DNA of 64,000 nucleotides from positions 263,100 to 327,099 of the forward strand of contig NZ_BMNH01000004.1 of assembly GCF_014646355.1 (NCBI RefSeq). Direction: 5' to 3'. Shown piece after piece: positions 2,176 through 8,224 of the stretch. A program made the position numbers and the translations under genes. Numbering within the stretch: the stretch's first letter is position 1; every line of letters starts with the position of its first letter. The notes below the pieces were generated by a model. The model was not told where the DNA came from. It saw nothing but the letters and a program-made list of their open reading frames with translations, and ran no database searches. Source of the stretch: Nonomuraea cavernae (lineage in GTDB: Bacteria; Actinomycetota; Actinomycetes; Streptosporangiales; Streptosporangiaceae).

Positions 2176-3318
2176 GTGCTTCGCACCCCCGACGCCCACG
2201 GCGAGGTGCTCGCCGACCTGCGGGAGAGTGTCCTGCGGAGCTGCCGCGACTACGGCCACGACTACTACGTGCGCTCCAGCGACGCGGGAGACAACGCCCG
2301 GGAGCTCTGGCACGCCCTGGGCCGGATCGGCGCGCTCGGCGTGGGCATCCCCGAGGAGCACGGAGGAGGCGGAGCCGGCATCGAGGCGCTCGCCGTCGTG
2401 GCCGAGGCGGTGGCCGAGGCCGGCTCGCCCATCATGCTGCTCGCCCTCTCCCCGGCCGTGTGCGCGACCGTCATCGGCAGGTTCGGCTCCGACGAGCAGC
2501 GGGCCGAGTGGCTGCCGGGGCTGGCCGACGGCTCCAAGGTGCTCGGCTTCGCCATCACCGAGCCCGACGCCGGGTCCAACACCCACAACATCCGGACCCG
2601 GGCCCGCCGCGAGGGCGACGAGTGGGTGTTGTCCGGCCAGAAGTACTACGTGTCCCACGTCGACAACGCCGACGCCCTCCTCGTCGTCGCGCGCGCCGAG
2701 GACGACGCGCTGAGGGCCTTCCTGGTGCCCACGGACGCGCCGGGCATCGCGACCAGCCCCATCGAGGTCGAGATCGTCTCCCCGGAACGCCAGTACTCCG
2801 TCTTCTTCGACGACGTCCGGGTGGCCGCCGACGCGGTGGTCGGCCCCGACGCCGGCCTGGCCGTCCTGTACGCCGGGCTCAACCCCGAGCGGATCGTGAG
2901 CGCCGCCCTGCTGAACGGCATCGCCAGGTACGCGATCGACATCGCCGCCGACTACGCCCGCAAGCGCACGGTCTGGAACGTCCCGATCGGCGCCCACCAG
3001 GCCATCTCCCACCCGCTGGCCAAGGCCGAGACCGCGCTGGCCGGCGCCCGGCTGCTGACCGCGGCGGCCGCCCAGGCGTTCGACCGGGGCGAGCCCGGTG
3101 GCATCCAGGCCGCCATGGCCAAGCTGTCGGCGTCCGAGGCGGCCTCCATGGCGCTCGACAGCGCCATGCAGACCCTCGGCGGCAACGGCATGTCCCGCGA
3201 GTACGGCCTGGCCACCCTGTCCGGCCTGGTGCGGTTGTTCCGCATCGCGCCGGTGAGCACCGAGATGTTGCTCAACCACATCGCGCACAAGCGACTGGCC
3301 CTGCCCCGGTCCTACTGA
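2176..3318 (+). CDS. Acyl-CoA dehydrogenase family protein
   Basis: A 380-residue flavoprotein of the acyl-CoA dehydrogenase family, predicted to oxidise an acyl-CoA at the alpha-beta bond with FAD. The FAITEPDAGSN motif near residue 120 is the FAD/substrate-binding signature, and the C-terminal four-helix part keeps the LGGNGMSREYGL segment. In the place where many members have the catalytic EGTxE motif this protein reads APVSTEM, so either the base lies elsewhere, as in some long-chain and isovaleryl-CoA enzymes, or activity is altered. The start is GTG 2176, preceded by GGAGGG 8 bases upstream; an upstream in-frame start at 2092 has no ribosome site. Its stop overlaps the next start (TGATG), so the two genes are translationally coupled. 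Confidence 0.85.
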   Translation: MLRTPDAHGEVLADLRESVLRSCRDYGHDYYVRSSDAGDNARELWHALGRIGALGVGIPEEHGGGGAGIEALAVVAEAVAEAGSPIMLLALSPAVCATVIGRFGSDEQRAEWLPGLADGSKVLGFAITEPDAGSNTHNIRTRARREGDEWVLSGQKYYVSHVDNADALLVVARAEDDALRAFLVPTDAPGIATSPIEVEIVSPERQYSVFFDDVRVAADAVVGPDAGLAVLYAGLNPERIVSAALLNGIARYAIDIAADYARKRTVWNVPIGAHQAISHPLAKAETALAGARLLTAAAAQAFDRGEPGGIQAAMAKLSASEAASMALDSAMQTLGGNGMSREYGLATLSGLVRLFRIAPVSTEMLLNHIAHKRLALPRSY

Positions 3319-4001
3319 TGGGCGAGCCGTTGCGGGTCCGGCGCGAGGGCGCCCTGGTCAGGGCGACCCTCGACCGGCCGCCGGTCAACGCGCTCGACTC
3401 CGCGACCTACCGGCGGCTGGCCGAGGTCGCGGCCGAGACGCGGCCGGAGGAGTGCCTGCTGATCGACGCGGCCGGTCGCGCCTTCAGCGCCGGCCAGGAC
3501 CTCCGCGAACACGAGCGGGCCACCGCCGCCGGCCGGCTCGGTGAGAGCCTCACCGAGGGGGCCGGAGCGCTGGCCGCCGTCCTGCGCTGCCCGGCCCCCG
3601 TCGTCGTGGCCGTCCAGGGGCCCGCGATCGGAGCCGGGGCGCTGCTCGCCGCCGCGGCCGACCTCGCGGTCTTCGCCGACGACGCCTGGCTGCGGGTGCC
3701 CGAGCTCGACGTCGGGGTCACGGTCGGCTACGCCGTGCTGAGCCGCCTGCTGCCGCCCCCGATGGCCAGGCGGGCGCTGCTCACCTCCGAGCGCGTCGAG
3801 GCCCCGGTGCTCGACCGGCTCGGCGCGGCGGTCGTCGTGCCGCCCGCCGACCTCGCCGAGGTCGCCGCCGGTCTGGCCGCCGGGCTGCTCGGCAAGCCGT
3901 CCGGGATGGTCGCGCTGGCCCGCCGGAGCTGGGGCGGCGGCGAGCGCGAACGCGCGGCTCGGGCGTACGAGGCGGAGGTCCGTGACTTCCTGGCCCGCTG
4001 A
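3318..4001 (+). CDS. Enoyl-CoA hydratase/isomerase family protein
   Basis: A 227-residue crotonase-fold protein, at the short end for the family (about 255). It would hydrate or isomerise an enoyl-CoA, most simply the product of the acyl-CoA dehydrogenase encoded immediately upstream with a TGATG overlap. The oxyanion-hole segments are visible as FSAGQDL near residue 55 and GPAIGAGALLAAAADL near residue 95, followed by the PELDVGVTVGYAVLSRLL stretch where one catalytic glutamate usually sits. The C-terminal trimerisation helix seems shortened. The pair looks like a small catabolic or side-chain degradation operon; the actual acyl group is unknown. Confidence 0.82.
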   Translation: MGEPLRVRREGALVRATLDRPPVNALDSATYRRLAEVAAETRPEECLLIDAAGRAFSAGQDLREHERATAAGRLGESLTEGAGALAAVLRCPAPVVVAVQGPAIGAGALLAAAADLAVFADDAWLRVPELDVGVTVGYAVLSRLLPPPMARRALLTSERVEAPVLDRLGAAVVVPPADLAEVAAGLAAGLLGKPSGMVALARRSWGGGERERAARAYEAEVRDFLAR

Positions 4002-4043
4002 GCGCCCTTGGGAGGTCTCTCGGACGGGTCCTCGGGAGGGCTC

Positions 4044-4580
4044 TCAGAGAGTGAGCGCGAAGCAGCCGGAGGCGGGGCCGATCGTGATCGTGATGCGGAT
4101 CCGCCCGTCGGCGGGGAGCAGGACCGAGCCCGGGTAGATCTTGTCCTCGGTGGGCCGGCCGTCGTCGCCGAGCGTGGTGGCGGTGGCCGCGGCGTCCCGG
4201 ACGTAGTAGGCGACCGTGCCCGAGTCGACGTGATCGACCTTGATCAGCGCGTCCGCCGCCCCCCGGTGGCGGGCCTGGGCGACCCAGAACTTGGCGACCC
4301 CGCCGCGCTGCCGCCGCAGCGCCTCGCCGAAGGGGCCGGCGCGGACAGCGCCAGCCGAGGCGCCCCTCTCACCCGCCTGGCTCGCGTCGACGCACGGCAC
4401 GCCGTCTGCCGGGGTGGCCGGTGGGGAGACGGGGCTCGTCCAGCCGATCACGCTCGGCGCCTGCTCGGCCGACGGCGGTCCGGCCGCCTGTTTCGCGGGC
4501 GGCGGGCTCGCCGAACAGGCTGATTGGCAGCATGTCAGGGTAATTGCCGCTAGTAGCGGAATAACCTTTGATCTAGGCAT
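4044..4580 (-). CDS. Hypothetical lipoprotein
   Basis: A 178-residue protein I do not recognise. The N-terminus (MPRSK, then a hydrophobic stretch ending LTCCQSAC) looks like a lipoprotein signal with Cys17, Cys18 or Cys22 as possible lipid sites. A Pro/Ala-rich linker runs to about residue 60 and a small folded domain follows with two further cysteines (one early in the domain, one near the C-terminus), which could form a disulfide. It reads divergently from the MauE-like gene, whose start lies only 36 bases away, so promoters overlap and the protein may belong to that cluster functionally. The ribosome site before ATG 4580 is weak. Confidence 0.6.
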   Translation of the reverse strand: MPRSKVIPLLAAITLTCCQSACSASPPPAKQAAGPPSAEQAPSVIGWTSPVSPPATPADGVPCVDASQAGERGASAGAVRAGPFGEALRRQRGGVAKFWVAQARHRGAADALIKVDHVDSGTVAYYVRDAAATATTLGDDGRPTEDKIYPGSVLLPADGRIRITITIGPASGCFALTL

Positions 4581-4615
4581 TGATCAAAGTATCTCGTCGA
4601 ATTACGATCACGTCC

Positions 4616-5137
4616 ATGAACCCCGCCGATTTAGTCGGTCTCGGCTGCGGACTTCTCGCGGCCTTGTTCATCGCCAGCGGCATTCCCAAGATCAGGCGCC
4701 CCTTCGATCTCGCTTTGGCGCTCGTCCGCTTCGGTGTCGCCGGTCGGGTGCGCCCCGGTCTGGGGCGGCTCCTCGGGGCCGTCGAAGTCGCGGTGGGCGT
4801 GGCCGTCGCAGTGAGTCCCATGCTGCTCCCGGCGGCGGTCGCGGCCCTTCTGCTGCTGGTCGCGTTCACGGCCGTGGTCCTGCGGTCGCTCGCCGCGGGG
4901 CGAAGCGTGGAGTGCGCCTGCTTCGGCATCGGTGAGCGGACCTCGCCGGCCACCGTGGTCAGAAACCTCGTCCTGATGGGTGTCGCGTCGTACGTCGCGT
5001 TCGCGCCCGGACTTCCTACGCTGGATCAGCGTATTTCCGGAATTCTCGCCGGAACGCTATTGACGTGCGGATATTTACTGATTTCCGCGATGGCTGTCGT
5101 CAAGCCGTTCAGCGCCCGCCTCGACGGACGGGGATGA
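4616..5137 (+). CDS. MauE/DoxX-like membrane protein
   Basis: A 173-residue membrane protein of the MauE family (methylamine utilisation, PF07291-like), with about four to five spans. The SGIPKIRRP segment near residue 22 and the CACFG motif near residue 103 are the family's marks; the two cysteines are thought to take part in thiol redox transfer across the membrane. In methylamine-using bacteria MauE and MauD are needed for correct disulfide formation in the cysteine-rich light chain MauA. Here it opens a rightward cluster with two thioredoxin-fold proteins and a cysteine-rich secreted mini-protein, so an oxidative-folding role fits. ATG 4616 is chosen over an in-frame TTG at 4580; the ribosome site is poor. 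Confidence 0.75.
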   Translation: MNPADLVGLGCGLLAALFIASGIPKIRRPFDLALALVRFGVAGRVRPGLGRLLGAVEVAVGVAVAVSPMLLPAAVAALLLLVAFTAVVLRSLAAGRSVECACFGIGERTSPATVVRNLVLMGVASYVAFAPGLPTLDQRISGILAGTLLTCGYLLISAMAVVKPFSARLDGRG

Positions 5138-5141
5138 CGCC

Positions 5142-5666
5142 ATGGGATACACCGGGGTGACGCTCGCGGGGCTCGTCTGGTTACTCCTCCTGTCCTTCGG
5201 ACTTCTCGTCGTACGGCGTGAGCTGTCGATCCTCCAGGATCGCGTGGCCGTGAGCGGTGCCGCGCCCGCGGACGGCCTCGCCATCGGCGCGCTCGCTCCC
5301 CGGTTCCCCGGACTGCGCGCCGATGACGTTGTCCTGTTCTTCTTCGGTGACTGCGCGCCCTGCCACGAACTGGCGACCGAGGTGGCGCGCTCGGCGGACC
5401 CCGGCCGTTACGCGTGCGTGGTCAGCGACGGCGCCATGCCGGGCTCGGCGGCCGGCGTCAGGGCCCTGCTACCCGCCGACGCGCGGGCGCTGGTGGGGGA
5501 GGAGGCCGCCGCCGTCCGGCAGCGGTACAAGGTCCACTCTGGACCGTTCGGCGTCGCGGTGTCGGACGGCCTGGTGGTGAGCAAAGGGGTCCTGCGCTAC
5601 GCGGAGGACCTGGAACAGCTGCGGCGGGCCGGTTACGGCGCGGCGGCTTCCACGACGACCCCCTGA
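5142..5666 (+). CDS. MauD-like membrane-anchored thioredoxin-fold protein, CAPC motif
   Basis: A 174-residue protein with one N-terminal membrane span (about residues 4-24) and an extracytoplasmic thioredoxin-like domain. The active site is DCAPC near residue 70 in the context FFFGDCAPCHELA, as in TlpA/MauD-type thiol-disulfide proteins. Two further cysteines are absent from the core except one near residue 88. It begins 4 bases after the MauE-like gene stops, the same mauE-mauD order as in methylamine dehydrogenase operons, and would exchange electrons or disulfides with that membrane partner and with the Cys-rich protein encoded downstream. Substrate identity is inference. Confidence 0.75.
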   Translation: MGYTGVTLAGLVWLLLLSFGLLVVRRELSILQDRVAVSGAAPADGLAIGALAPRFPGLRADDVVLFFFGDCAPCHELATEVARSADPGRYACVVSDGAMPGSAAGVRALLPADARALVGEEAAAVRQRYKVHSGPFGVAVSDGLVVSKGVLRYAEDLEQLRRAGYGAAASTTTP

Positions 5667-5741
5667 CACCCCCTGACACCCCCCGACACCCCCGTGACGA
5701 CTCCCTGATGCCCCCTCATGACCCCTGACGACACCCTGATC
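5663..5741 (+). repeat. Degenerate C-rich direct repeats (CCCTGACACC-like)
   Basis: About seven imperfect copies of a 9-12 base unit related to CCCCTGACACC fill the gap between the first MauD-like gene and the next small gene. There is no hairpin or coding signal. It ends just before the GAGGAGACGCAG ribosome site of the 52-residue gene. Confidence 0.5.
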
Positions 5742-5760
5742 ACCTTTTGAGGAGACGCAG

Positions 5761-5919
5761 ATGGGCGGCCTGGCCTCCAAACCGCTGTTCAGGATGGCGC
5801 TGGCGATGCCGCTGGCGGGACTCGGGGTGCTCGCCGGGCACCAGGCCGGAGTGCGGCCGTGGGCGCTGCTCGTCACGGCCGCGCTGATCGTGGGCCTCGC
5901 TCAGCAGACCCTCCCTTGA
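5761..5919 (+). CDS. Small hydrophobic protein (52 residues)
   Basis: A short open frame starting at ATG 5761 with a strong ribosome site (GGAG, 7-8 bases upstream) and ending 10 bases before the next gene. The product is 52 residues with two likely membrane helices (about residues 10-26 and 34-49) separated by HQAGVRPW. I do not recognise a family. The good ribosome site, tight spacing and position inside the MauE/MauD-like cluster make it a probable gene rather than chance. Confidence 0.55.
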   Translation: MGGLASKPLFRMALAMPLAGLGVLAGHQAGVRPWALLVTAALIVGLAQQTLP

Positions 5920-5928
5920 GGCCCGAAC

Positions 5929-6480
5929 GTGATCATCATGATCACGCGCGCCCGCGTGTCCGGGTGCTTCGGTTCCCCGGTGGTGGCCGGCGCCGTGCTC
6001 GTGCTGTGCGCGATCGGCGCGGCGGCGCTCACCGGGGCCCTCCTCAGCCTCCTCGGCGCGGCCCTGGAGCCGGGCATGCGGGCGCTGCTTGCCCTGGTCG
6101 CCGCGTCGGCCGTCGCCGCGGGCGCCGTCACCCGCCCGGTGCCGTGGCAACTGGACCGCGAGACCGACACCGACTGGCTCTCGTACGAGGACTGGCGTAC
6201 CGCGGCGTTCAACGGGTTCGCGCTCGGGCTCGGGTTCACCACCCGGATCGGGTTCTGGCTGTTCTACCTCGTCCCGCTGACCGCCTTCGCCGTGGCCGAT
6301 CCAATTCTCGGGGCGGCCGGTTACGCCGCCTTCGCGGTGAGCCGGGTCGGCGGCTCGGCGTTGCTCGCCGCGGCCGACATCTGGATCGACGGCGGAATCG
6401 TCCGCGCCCGCGTGGTCGCCGACCTGATCGCCGGCCTGGCCCTGGGCGCGCTCCTCACCGCTCTCGTCCCGCTGCTCTGA
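5929..6480 (+). CDS. Hypothetical membrane protein in the Mau-like cluster
   Basis: A 183-residue membrane protein of unknown family. It has two N-terminal spans (about residues 17-40 and 47-67), a short polar loop DRETDTDWLSYEDWR near residue 78, then two or three more spans. Cys13 and Cys27 lie in or near the first span. GTG 5929 has GAGG 7 bases upstream; ATG 5938 is an alternative. It is part of the run of closely spaced rightward genes from 4616 to 7928. Whether it helps export, anchor or mature the cysteine-rich product is not evident. Confidence 0.65.
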   Translation: MIIMITRARVSGCFGSPVVAGAVLVLCAIGAAALTGALLSLLGAALEPGMRALLALVAASAVAAGAVTRPVPWQLDRETDTDWLSYEDWRTAAFNGFALGLGFTTRIGFWLFYLVPLTAFAVADPILGAAGYAAFAVSRVGGSALLAAADIWIDGGIVRARVVADLIAGLALGALLTALVPLL

Positions 6481-6556
6481 CCCACCGAATGTGACCTGCC
6501 GAATGTGACCCACCGAAGTCGTGCCGCCACCCCCAACCAACAGAGAGGAAGCAGTA

Positions 6557-7072
6557 ATGGAGGAAGGAACGAGCAGACGCGCCCTGTTCAGCGGGATCTT
6601 CCGCGACAAGGCCGACGACTCGCCGCTGCCCCCGGCGGACGCCCCGCTCGGCGTCCTTGTCACCGGCTCCGGGCGGGACGTCACCGTCCGCGGCTACGGG
6701 AGGTCCGCGAGCCTCATGGCGGCGGAGCCCGTCGCCGCCCAGGCCGAGGAGCTTCCGTACGGCTGGACGCTCCGGCCCGGTGACCTCGTCGTGCTCGACG
6801 AGACCAGCCCCGGGACGAAGGTCGCGGTGGCCCTGCACCGCAACGTCACCGGCCGCGTCACCGCCGTCGCGGCCGACCGGATCACGGTCGAGGGGCAGGC
6901 GTGCCGGCTCGACCCGCGAACGGTGCACTACGAGGGGATGGCGGGCGAACCGTCCGCCAAGCCGCTGGCCGAGCCCCTCAAGGTCGGGGACGTGGTCACC
7001 CTGGAGTGCTTCGACAACCGGGTCGACGGCACCCTGACCGTCCACTTCATGCGGCGCACAGGGCGGGCTTGA
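6557..7072 (+). CDS. Hypothetical protein of the Mau-like cluster
   Basis: A 171-residue soluble-looking protein that I do not recognise. The first 20 residues are polar and charged, with TSRRALFSGIF resembling the start of a twin-arginine-type leader but without a long hydrophobic core. The rest alternates short hydrophobic and polar segments suggestive of beta strands, with DVVTLECFDN near the end. There are only two cysteines. ATG 6557 follows GAGAGGAAG at good spacing. Its TGA overlaps the ATG of the second MauD-like gene (TGATG), so translation is coupled and a role with that protein is likely. Confidence 0.65.
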   Translation: MEEGTSRRALFSGIFRDKADDSPLPPADAPLGVLVTGSGRDVTVRGYGRSASLMAAEPVAAQAEELPYGWTLRPGDLVVLDETSPGTKVAVALHRNVTGRVTAVAADRITVEGQACRLDPRTVHYEGMAGEPSAKPLAEPLKVGDVVTLECFDNRVDGTLTVHFMRRTGRA

Positions 7073-7599
7073 TGGATCGCGTCCTCGCCGTCGCCGTGGT
7101 GGTGGCGTGCGTCGTCCTCACGGTTGCCTTCCTGGCCTGCCTGCGGGGCATCGCGGAGCTCAGGCTGCGCCTCACCGGGCGGGGGGTCGATCCGTCCAGC
7201 CAGCTGATCATCGGCAGGAAACTGCCCGATCGGCTCGTCGGGCTGATCCCCGACCCGAGGCTGGACACCCTGCTCGTCTTCATGTCCAGCACCTGTGGAA
7301 CCTGCCTTGGCCTGGCCGCCGAGCTCGGCAAGCTCTCGGACCGCGAGGTGGTGGCGTGCGTGGTCGGTGACTCCGGCGCGGAGCTCGTCGCCCTGCTTCC
7401 GCCGGACATCACGGTCATCAGCGGAGAAGAGGCCGCGGCCGTGGACCAGGAACTGCCCATGGCCATCTGGCCGAGCGCCATCCTGCAGCGCGACGGATTC
7501 ATGGTGGCCGTGGCCCAGGGCAGCGACGCCAACAGCGCCGCCGCCCTCGAGGTGTTGTGGGAACAGAGACCGGTCGTAGCGAAGGAGACGTCAGCATGA
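7072..7599 (+). CDS. Second MauD-like thioredoxin-fold protein, CGTC motif
   Basis: A 175-residue protein with an N-terminal membrane span (about residues 5-25) and a thioredoxin-like domain with the redox motif STCGTC near residue 78 in the context LVFMSSTCGTCLGLAAELG. An IWPSAILQRDG segment near residue 138 provides the cis-proline-like region of the fold. It is related in plan to the CAPC protein encoded at 5142 but clearly different in sequence, so the cluster carries two separate thiol-redox partners. It overlaps both neighbours by one to four bases, including the start of the 15-cysteine protein. Confidence 0.75.
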   Translation: MDRVLAVAVVVACVVLTVAFLACLRGIAELRLRLTGRGVDPSSQLIIGRKLPDRLVGLIPDPRLDTLLVFMSSTCGTCLGLAAELGKLSDREVVACVVGDSGAELVALLPPDITVISGEEAAAVDQELPMAIWPSAILQRDGFMVAVAQGSDANSAAALEVLWEQRPVVAKETSA

Positions 7600-7928
7600 T
7601 CGTCGAGCACGTACGGAAGACCCGGCTGTCGAGGAGCAAGTTCCTCGCCGTCGCCGGGGCGACCCTGGTGGGTGTGGCCACCAAGGCGTGGTTCCCGGGC
7701 CGGGCGGAGGCGGCTCCGAACGGCTGCTCCGGCGCGCCGACCTGCGGCTGCTGCAGCTCCACGAAGTGCTGCAGCAGCGGCTGCAGCAATGCCACCACCT
7801 GCGGTGGCAAACAGTGCTGGACGAGCTGCGCCTACATCGGCAGCACGCTGTACCGCTTCGACTGCTGCGACTACTGGAACAGCGGATCGTTGTGCATCTG
7901 CCGCGTCAATCTGCGGCCCTGCACCTGA
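7596..7928 (+). CDS. Secreted cysteine-rich mini-protein, methylamine dehydrogenase light-chain-like
   Basis: A 110-residue exported protein. The N-terminus (RKTRLSRSKFLAVAGATLVG) is a signal or Tat-like leader with likely cleavage after GRAEA, near residue 39. The mature part, about 70 residues, has 15 cysteines (44, 50, 52, 53, 58, 59, 63, 69, 74, 78, 90, 91, 100, 102, 109) and only two tryptophans, W75 and W94. The pattern W-x2-C, then Y-x-x-DCC and C-x-C recalls the MauA light chain, which has six disulfides and makes the cofactor TTQ from two tryptophans, but this protein is shorter and I see no MauB or MauG nearby. It is the last gene of the cluster and overlaps the preceding gene (ATGA). 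Function is inferred only. Confidence 0.7.
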   Translation: MIVEHVRKTRLSRSKFLAVAGATLVGVATKAWFPGRAEAAPNGCSGAPTCGCCSSTKCCSSGCSNATTCGGKQCWTSCAYIGSTLYRFDCCDYWNSGSLCICRVNLRPCT

Positions 7929-8016: not shown

Positions 8017-8109
8017 GGAGGCGTCCGGGTGCCTGGTGGCCCCCCCGGTCTTCAAAACCGGTGGCGCCGAGCAGCTCGGCGCGGCGGGTTCGATTCCCGT
8101 CCGCCTCCG
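8017..8109 (+). tRNA. selC: tRNA-Sec (anticodon TCA)
   Basis: A 93-base selenocysteine tRNA that inserts Sec at UGA codons. The acceptor arms GGAGGCG (8017-8023) and CGCCTCC (8102-8108) pair, with discriminator G at 8109 and no encoded CCA. The anticodon stem CCGGT/ACCGG encloses the loop CTTCAAA, giving anticodon TCA at 8052-8054. A long variable arm (GCGCCGAGCAGCTCGGCGC) and the T loop TTCGATT are clear. The same loop and long arm occur in E. coli selC. No selA, selB, selD or formate dehydrogenase gene is in the window. Confidence 0.93.
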
Positions 8110-8224
8110 CTTCGCAATCCACCAGAGAAATCCCGCACACGGTGTCGATCCGGCCGGCGGGTGTTCGACGCGTTGATGAAGGACGGGGCGCACGCCCCCT
8201 GTTTCACCAACACGGAGGATCGAC

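Follow-up and report, generated by a model that had tools for sequence, protein, structure and literature searches.

What do helper genes of the methylamine dehydrogenase type do around a small, cysteine-packed exported protein that is not recognizable as the light chain MauA? The question is raised by a stretch of 64,000 nucleotides of Nonomuraea cavernae (contig NZ_BMNH01000004.1, positions 263,100 to 327,099; hereafter the window), which carries such a gene set at 4616–7928. Comparison of its sequences leads us to conclude, with a probability of roughly three in four, that the locus is a Mau-type module for oxidative folding, which contains MauF as a selenoprotein and is dedicated to a disulfide-dense exported mini-protein, and that it is not a methylamine dehydrogenase system.

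The gene run and its Mau-type helpers

In our reading of the window, a tight rightward run of seven open reading frames (ORFs) occupies 4616–7928 of the plus strand, with gaps of 4, 94, 9, 76, −1, and −4 bases between them. The ORFs at 5761–5919 and 5929–6480 share one frame across a single TGA and are best taken as one selenoprotein gene, which gives six genes rather than seven. The initial annotation had described an eight-gene-like run; its tightness stands, and the count of eight does not. It had also proposed three unrecognized proteins as new accessory families, two of which are the halves of one MauF-like gene, while the third carries a DUF5666 domain. The features are:

4616–5137, plus strand: MauE-family membrane protein with a CACFG motif (PF07291), present in 8/8 cassettes of the family
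5142–5666, plus strand: TrxA, a thioredoxin-like, MauD-like protein with CAPC (hhalign with MauD) and a membrane anchor seen by eye
5761–6480, plus strand: MauF-like protein of 239 residues with TGA read through (hhalign with MauF)
5761–5919, plus strand: 52-residue ORF, the upstream half of the MauF-like frame
5917–5919, plus strand: in-frame TGA, proposed selenocysteine 53 (QQTLP-U-GPN), in 10/10 type I loci
5928–5967, plus strand: two hairpins resembling a selenocysteine insertion sequence (SECIS), directly 3' of the TGA (single folds, covariation)
5929–6480, plus strand: 183-residue membrane ORF, the downstream half of the MauF-like frame
6557–7072, plus strand: 171-residue DUF5666-domain protein (PF18914), signal peptide not clear by eye
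7072–7599, plus strand: TrxB, a second thioredoxin-like protein with CGTC (hhalign with TrxA) and a membrane anchor seen by eye
7596–7928, plus strand: exported mini-protein of 110 residues with 15 mature cysteines; these and W75 are invariant in 8/8
8017–8110, plus strand: tRNA-Sec with anticodon TCA (ARAGORN; Rfam RF01852)
4044–4580, minus strand: divergent lipoprotein-like gene (by eye), with homologues in other cassettes of the family

The proposal of a Mau-like oxidative-folding cluster was borne out as far as the helpers go: MauE, a MauD-like protein, and a MauF homologue were all found. The expected MauE-like membrane protein matched PF07291 with E 1.2e-22 (81 bits; cut-off 27), and both membrane-anchored thioredoxin-fold proteins are encoded, their N-terminal membrane segment being recognized by eye. 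TrxA aligned with MauD in hhalign (probability 82, E 1e-5, 152 columns); it had no match among Pfam or NCBIfam models, including TIGR02661 (MauD), to which MauD of Paracoccus denitrificans matched with 383.7 bits. TrxA and TrxB are paralogues (probability 97, E 2e-11). TrxB and the DUF5666 protein (PF18914, 33.6 bits; cut-off 27) were each present in 8/8 cassettes of the family.

The order of all seven ORFs was identical in the eight loci of the family that carry the mini-protein, with genes in the compared loci called by a simple script and not by an annotation pipeline; this is the conservation in relatives that the initial annotation had asked for.

A MauF homologue across an in-frame TGA

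Profile comparisons indicate that the product of 5761–6480 is a distant homologue of MauF. We designate as type I the 10 loci with a mini-protein gene, eight from the family and two (L128 and L132) from another class of the phylum. With cysteine written for the TGA, the 10 read-through type I proteins aligned with three MauF proteins at probability 66 (E 5.6e-5, 222 columns), and 39 other read-through proteins, the doubtful L118 included, at 99.7 (E 1e-26, 218 columns). The two sets matched each other at 99.1 (E 8.6e-19), and hhalign placed the TGA position on the cysteine of the SPCG motif of MauF.

Intermediates were found through the downstream half of the frame. Among the other 393 genomes in the class sample, a profile of the 183-residue ORF gave a single distant match (L036), in a neighborhood with MauE, a thioredoxin-like gene, and a 468-residue exported protein whose Cys-rich N-terminal domain is combined with LGFP repeats. 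Loci with products of this second kind are called type II. Five type II MauF-like proteins matched, by their C-terminal parts, MauF of P. denitrificans (probability 95.5, E 1.6e-8) and, at probability 96.8 and E 2.5e-10, the three MauF proteins, with a score of 71.8 where the shuffle maximum was 24.7. The type II member L052 passed the Pfam family DsbD_2 (PF13386; 26.5 bits, cut-off 24.9), and the 183-residue type I part was tied to type II at probability 96–97.

The TGA at 5917–5919 is the sole stop in the 5761–6480 frame. QQTLP-TGA-GPN was found in 10/10 type I loci. Among 56 MauF-like loci tried, one ran off its contig at this point; of the 55 readable ones, 49 had P-TGA-G by script (48 by reading) and the other six had cysteine, in SPCG. 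The difference is L118, which we discount as spurious: the stretch upstream lacks membrane character, and the match lies deep within the ORF.

Two hairpins follow, and most of the single folds shown have them start 8 bases behind the TGA. When the structure named from the window was imposed on 18 loci of our own choosing out of the 49 (15 distinct; 8/10 of type I and 10/39 of the others), 66.2% of the cells were paired versus 54.6% in shuffles, and covariation was 0.335 versus 0.162; none of the 500 shuffles attained either value. When the partners were slid by 1–3 columns, 32–57% were paired. The slides keep the relatedness of the loci, the shuffles do not, and both share the coding constraint. 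The tRNA-Sec gene, which Rfam RF01852 matched with 76.9 bits (gathering threshold 47), lies 88 bp after the mini-protein gene, so the genome has the decoding tRNA. We infer that the TGA is probably read as selenocysteine, using the neighboring tRNA-Sec.

What MauF contributes to the biogenesis of methylamine dehydrogenase has, to our knowledge, not been explained. If its conserved cysteine is replaced by an encoded selenocysteine, this residue is probably the redox center, which is directly testable. No NCBIfam model matched either of the two read-through proteins tried, those from the window and from L053, and our literature search found no report of a MauF-like selenoprotein. In the accessible main text of a 2026 review of prokaryotic selenoproteins, MauF, methylamine, and CcdA do not appear, another name being possible, and its single DsbD entry is a rhodanese/DsbD fusion (PMC13188914).

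The mini-protein

Of the 72 ORFs that a simple gene caller found in the window, the mini-protein alone combines 8 or more Cys with a Cys content of 6% or more. Its approximately 71 mature residues hold the 15 cysteines, CC and CxC pairs among them, and such a density would call for both oxidation and isomerization. The initial annotation had given it two tryptophans; this is correct for the mature part (W75 and W94), and a third, W32, lies in the leader. All 15 mature cysteines and W75 were invariant in the eight aligned members of the family, whereas W94 occurred in the protein of the window only (1/8).

Its distribution is patchy. Matches with E <1e-50 were found in 6/98 genomes of a sample of relatives, six further genomes having weak ones only (14 matches in total, of which the eight weak ones were dropped). 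Within the family the protein occurs in three genera (8/341 genomes), with Nonomuraea sediminis among the carriers. In a sample of 148 genomes of the class of N. cavernae it was found in this genome only, and in the other class 2/39 genomes had divergent relatives (L128, E 1.8e-13; L132, E 1.5e-17). On plasmids, no match was found for the mini-protein, the DUF5666 protein, TrxA, the domain of the type II product, or a type II MauF-like protein.

Homologues of the mini-protein without redox genes, which would have spoken against the initial proposal, were not seen: a MauF-like gene, at the least, is present in all 10 loci. MauE and the thioredoxins are not visible in L132 because its contig begins just before the mini-protein gene.

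The following pathway would account for these genes. The mini-protein, whose type I leader reads R-x-x-R-[SN]-x-F-L, would be exported either by a leader like that of twin-arginine translocation (Tat) lacking the second arginine or by the general secretory pathway. MauE, drawing on quinone, would recharge one thioredoxin, the disulfide donor, and the selenoprotein MauF, kin of DsbD and CcdA, would supply the other thioredoxin with reducing equivalents or reshuffling chemistry; the final product would be disulfide-dense. DsbD serves DsbC likewise, which is the analogy for the MauF branch. The formation of the light-chain disulfides by MauE was offered as speculation, and the role of MauD called unclear, in the accessible part of PMC7794033. 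At a guess, the DUF5666 protein could hold or deliver the mini-protein precursor. Our first guess for the product is a stable secreted peptide that acts on other cells.

Comparison of the mini-protein with MauA

The suggestion that the mini-protein is MauA-like was not upheld. Even with E values up to 10 admitted, it had no match to PF02975, to which P. denitrificans MauA matched with 180 bits; no PF02975 match was found in the genome of N. cavernae, in a search whose controls matched nothing either. In hhalign, shuffles with the cysteines fixed scored as high against MauA as the mature part in 36/60 and 29/40 cases, and after addition of the divergent relatives the score still lay within the Cys-fixed column shuffles. 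The leaders alone do resemble that of MauA (type I, probability 39, with 0/20 shuffles as high; type II, probability 93). By eye, W-x2-3-C followed by DCC is common to MauA, the mini-protein, and the type III products described below, a likeness without statistical support.

The initial annotation had further supposed that two tryptophans form the cofactor tryptophan tryptophylquinone (TTQ). A TTQ made from W75 and W94 is rejected, because W75 was found in 8/8 aligned members and W94 in 1/8. One Trp column is conserved in 10/10 type I proteins, and in 7/10 this Trp is the only one of the mature part, which excludes TTQ as the cofactor of the family; in L128 and L132 a second Trp directly follows the CCD motif, in a column neighboring that of W94 and not identical with it. 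The MauG search that had been named as a check on a methylamine dehydrogenase system also came out negative: PF03150 gave no match in the genome, the control matching in two genomes. MauB (PF06433) gave none, but the control genomes gave no match either, so that this search carries no weight. The structure models of the mini-protein, of low pLDDT (predicted local distance difference test), yielded a best Foldseek E of 0.74, hence no match at E ≤0.001, and a best VIA-align Z of 3.8; methylamine dehydrogenase was not among the matches shown, which at this model quality speaks neither for nor against a light-chain fold.

In one locus of another actinobacterial genome (L142), the product of 3260–3835 matched our own MauA profile with E 6.6e-13 and has, by eye, Trp at both TTQ positions. 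It lies beside a MauF-like gene with TGA at 4057–4683 and MauE at 5947–6465. This product had neither a Pfam nor an NCBIfam match, and it is possibly MauA-like.

Contrary evidence and alternative explanations

Several results weigh against the folding module with a selenoprotein MauF. Without the read-through part, the type I proteins scored 21.8 against MauF, with a shuffle maximum of 21.2, and the single sequence of the window scored 25.2, exactly as did an unrelated hydrophobic ORF of the window; kinship with MauF rests, therefore, on the read-through protein and the intermediates. In 8/11 type II proteins the C-terminal part contains no Cys, and a two-thiol relay of the CcdA type is accordingly not evident. 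The z-scores of single folds after the TGA were modest (mean −1.5 over 49 loci, 34/49 below −1), and L132 alone folded differently. RNAalifold gave no consensus pair for the same 18-locus alignment, which we think is due to a shifted register of the stems in types II and III. No tRNA-Sec was found in the seven other cassettes of the family (stretches of 15–16 kb). As to the product, RR was absent from the type I leader in 10/10 loci, TIGR01409 was not matched by the leader in the window, and structure predictions for two mini-protein sequences were poor (pLDDT 47 and 55).

Of the other explanations, the one that retains some plausibility, at well below even odds, is a cluster for a bacteriocin-like ribosomally synthesized and post-translationally modified peptide (RiPP), in which the mini-protein is a secreted antimicrobial or signaling peptide and the Mau-like genes encode its modifying enzymes. 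It fits the same chemistry and commits itself to a role for the product. In its favor are the candidate RiPP families of decRiPPter, three from Streptomyces having mauE, and one of them mauD as well, beside precursors with at least 8 Cys (PMC7794033). Other MauE loci of N. cavernae have Cys-rich peptides of 67 and 68 residues beside ABC-transporter-like genes, the cassette occurs in few genomes of the family (8/341), and the lipoprotein-like gene could confer immunity. However, apart from that gene, flanking ORFs of at least 90 residues were common to at most 3/8 loci, so that no transporter or peptidase accompanies the cassette, and the leader resembles an export signal. The density of cysteines, with its CC and CxC pairs, would also suit a metal-binding thiolate protein like a metallothionein or a copper store, kept reduced by redox genes, among which a DsbD-family member such as the MauF-like protein could supply the electrons. 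We consider this unlikely, given that MauE has been linked, as a speculation in the accessible part of PMC7794033, to disulfide formation and that the conserved Trp, Tyr, and Gly beside the cysteines resemble a folded core.

Two further explanations are improbable. The TGA could be a true stop that divides MauF into two translationally coupled halves, 5761–5919 and 5929–6480: TGA commonly serves as a stop, as it does in the window at 6478–6480, and a GTG start lies 9 bp behind the in-frame TGA. Yet in 10/10 type I loci the TGA is in frame and followed by GG, the wider set of MauF-like loci has P-TGA-G with the same script and reading counts as above or else cysteine in that motif, and MauF itself has Cys there; together with the covarying hairpins downstream and the adjacent tRNA-Sec, this makes a true stop very unlikely. 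Hardly credible is a MauA-like quinone-cofactor protein, with TTQ or with a Cys-Trp cofactor formed from W75 and the odd cysteine. In its favor are the helpers related to MauE, MauD, and MauF, the position of the product gene last in order, the MauA-like leader (probability 39, above all 20 shuffles), the cysteine and DCC motif that by eye follow W75 as they follow the matching Trp of MauA, the odd number of cysteines (15), and the second Trp of L128 and L132 after CCD, near the W94 column. But PF02975 was not matched and the mature part scored within shuffles, the single conserved Trp column and the single mature Trp of seven proteins exclude TTQ for those, MauG was not found in the genome, and the cassette is without a large-subunit gene. 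The oxidative-folding module remains our preferred reading.

Distribution of MauF-like genes and of other cassette types

Of the 376 genomes that represent the phylum here, 63 had a match to a combined type I and II MauF-like profile. One of these is the genome of N. cavernae and another (G459) corresponds to L053; of the remaining 61, 40 were inspected and 21 were not. The products assigned by script in the 40 loci were type II in 12, a third kind (type III) in 19, the mini-protein family in two, a protein matching the MauA profile only in two, and none in five, so that 35/40 had a Cys-rich product within the stretch fetched. MauE lay within 4.5 kb in 33/40 loci, on the same strand in 24. A thioredoxin was detected in 26/40 by a narrow pattern, and L109 and L111 look positive though the script missed them. 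A search with the Cys-rich domain of L036 matched in 10/296 genomes and gave eight usable type II loci, G846 and G069 being dropped as short or stop-ridden. The two additional cassette types are:

Type II (L036, L047–L053, L105–L115, L117): MauF-like gene near MauE
Type III (19/40 of the inspected loci, e.g., L120 and L125): MauF-like gene beside a Tat-exported Cys-rich protein

The type II MauF-like gene has P-TGA-G in 17 loci and SPCG in L047 and L048, the position being off the contig in L049. Unlike the mini-protein, the type II product has a Tat leader with RR, 20–25 Cys in the eight aligned rows, and a CPPG-x5-GWWK region. In type III, 17/19 loci have TGA and two (L131 and L141) SPCG; the product differs from the mini-protein in its 10 Cys and a CGHTYTTGSCPHP-like motif, and one Trp is conserved in 18/18 aligned sequences.

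These data make it probable, in our judgment, that the MauF-like proteins of Actinomycetota form a hitherto undescribed selenoprotein family and that selenium-dependent Mau-type modules across the phylum mature at least three classes of exported Cys-rich proteins without recognizable sequence kinship. If this is true, methylamine dehydrogenase biogenesis would be a specialized, cysteine-using branch of a general disulfide-assembly system. Selenoproteins would gain a family whose genes are broken in two by ordinary gene finding, as happened here, and MauE would be linked, together with the MauD-like and MauF-like proteins, to exported proteins dense in disulfides far outside the methylotrophs. 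The products would be little-explored Cys-rich secreted proteins with folding enzymes of their own.

In six of the loci (L119, L133, L134, L136, L139, and L143) the MauF-like and MauE profiles matched one and the same ORF of about 370–380 residues, which suggests a direct partnership of the two proteins. In L124, a 455-residue Tat-like protein (3628–4992) with a Cys-rich N-terminal domain lies beside a MauF-like gene with TGA; the cell-wall-binding repeat PF04122 was just below its cut-off in this protein.

Comparison with described systems

The canonical order is mauF-B-E-D-A, represented in our comparison by P. denitrificans (L024). Like it, the cassette encodes MauE, a thioredoxin of the MauD kind, a homologue of MauF, and, last in order, an exported product rich in cysteine whose leader resembles that of MauA. 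It differs in that MauB and MauG are missing from the cassette, a second thioredoxin and the DUF5666 protein are added, TGA replaces the Cys codon of MauF, and the product is not recognizable as MauA and has one conserved Trp.

The association of MauE with a Cys-rich precursor is already published for Streptomyces, as the accessible text of PMC7794033 states. These decRiPPter families resemble the cassette in having MauE, accompanied in one family by MauD, next to a small precursor that contains 8 or more Cys; they are likened here by description and not by sequence, and MauF is not mentioned in that part of the text. Our literature search found no report of cassettes of this kind with MauF. 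The DsbD/CcdA family of membrane electron carriers includes, in the accessible text of PMC13188914, a published selenocysteine form of a DsbD-like fusion, TsoB. The MauF-like protein differs from TsoB in lacking the rhodanese part and in its motif, P-U-G and not UxxxxU (PMC13188914, same part).

The neighborhood of the cassette and other MauE loci of N. cavernae

The lipoprotein-like gene at 4044–4580 (minus strand) was kept in 7/8 loci of the family, with 56–69% identity in six of the seven other cassettes; L019 had no convincing homologue. It could be an immunity gene or an envelope partner. Apart from it, no flanking ORF of at least 90 residues was common to more than 3/8 loci, and one cluster of three loci exists.

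The genome of N. cavernae encodes nine MauE proteins above the cut-off, and six of these nine genes, that of the window included, adjoin a Cys-rich protein that is small or looks exported (simple gene caller). A membrane gene adjoining MauE in L068 looked by eye like a relative of MauF but scored at a probability of 6–7 and was rejected. Further Cys-rich, exported-looking proteins lie beside MauE in L068 (6934–7326), L069 (6799–7248), and L071 (4806–5753). The L071 product joins, by eye, a DUF5666-like part to a Cys-rich part, the former being unmatched by DUF5666 in Pfam. Two more loci encode peptides of 67 residues with 12 Cys (L065, 5534–5737) and 68 residues with 8 Cys (L066, 6451–6657), near MauE, thioredoxin-like, and ABC-transporter-like genes and, in L065, an S26-peptidase-like gene; both are reminiscent of the decRiPPter mauE families.

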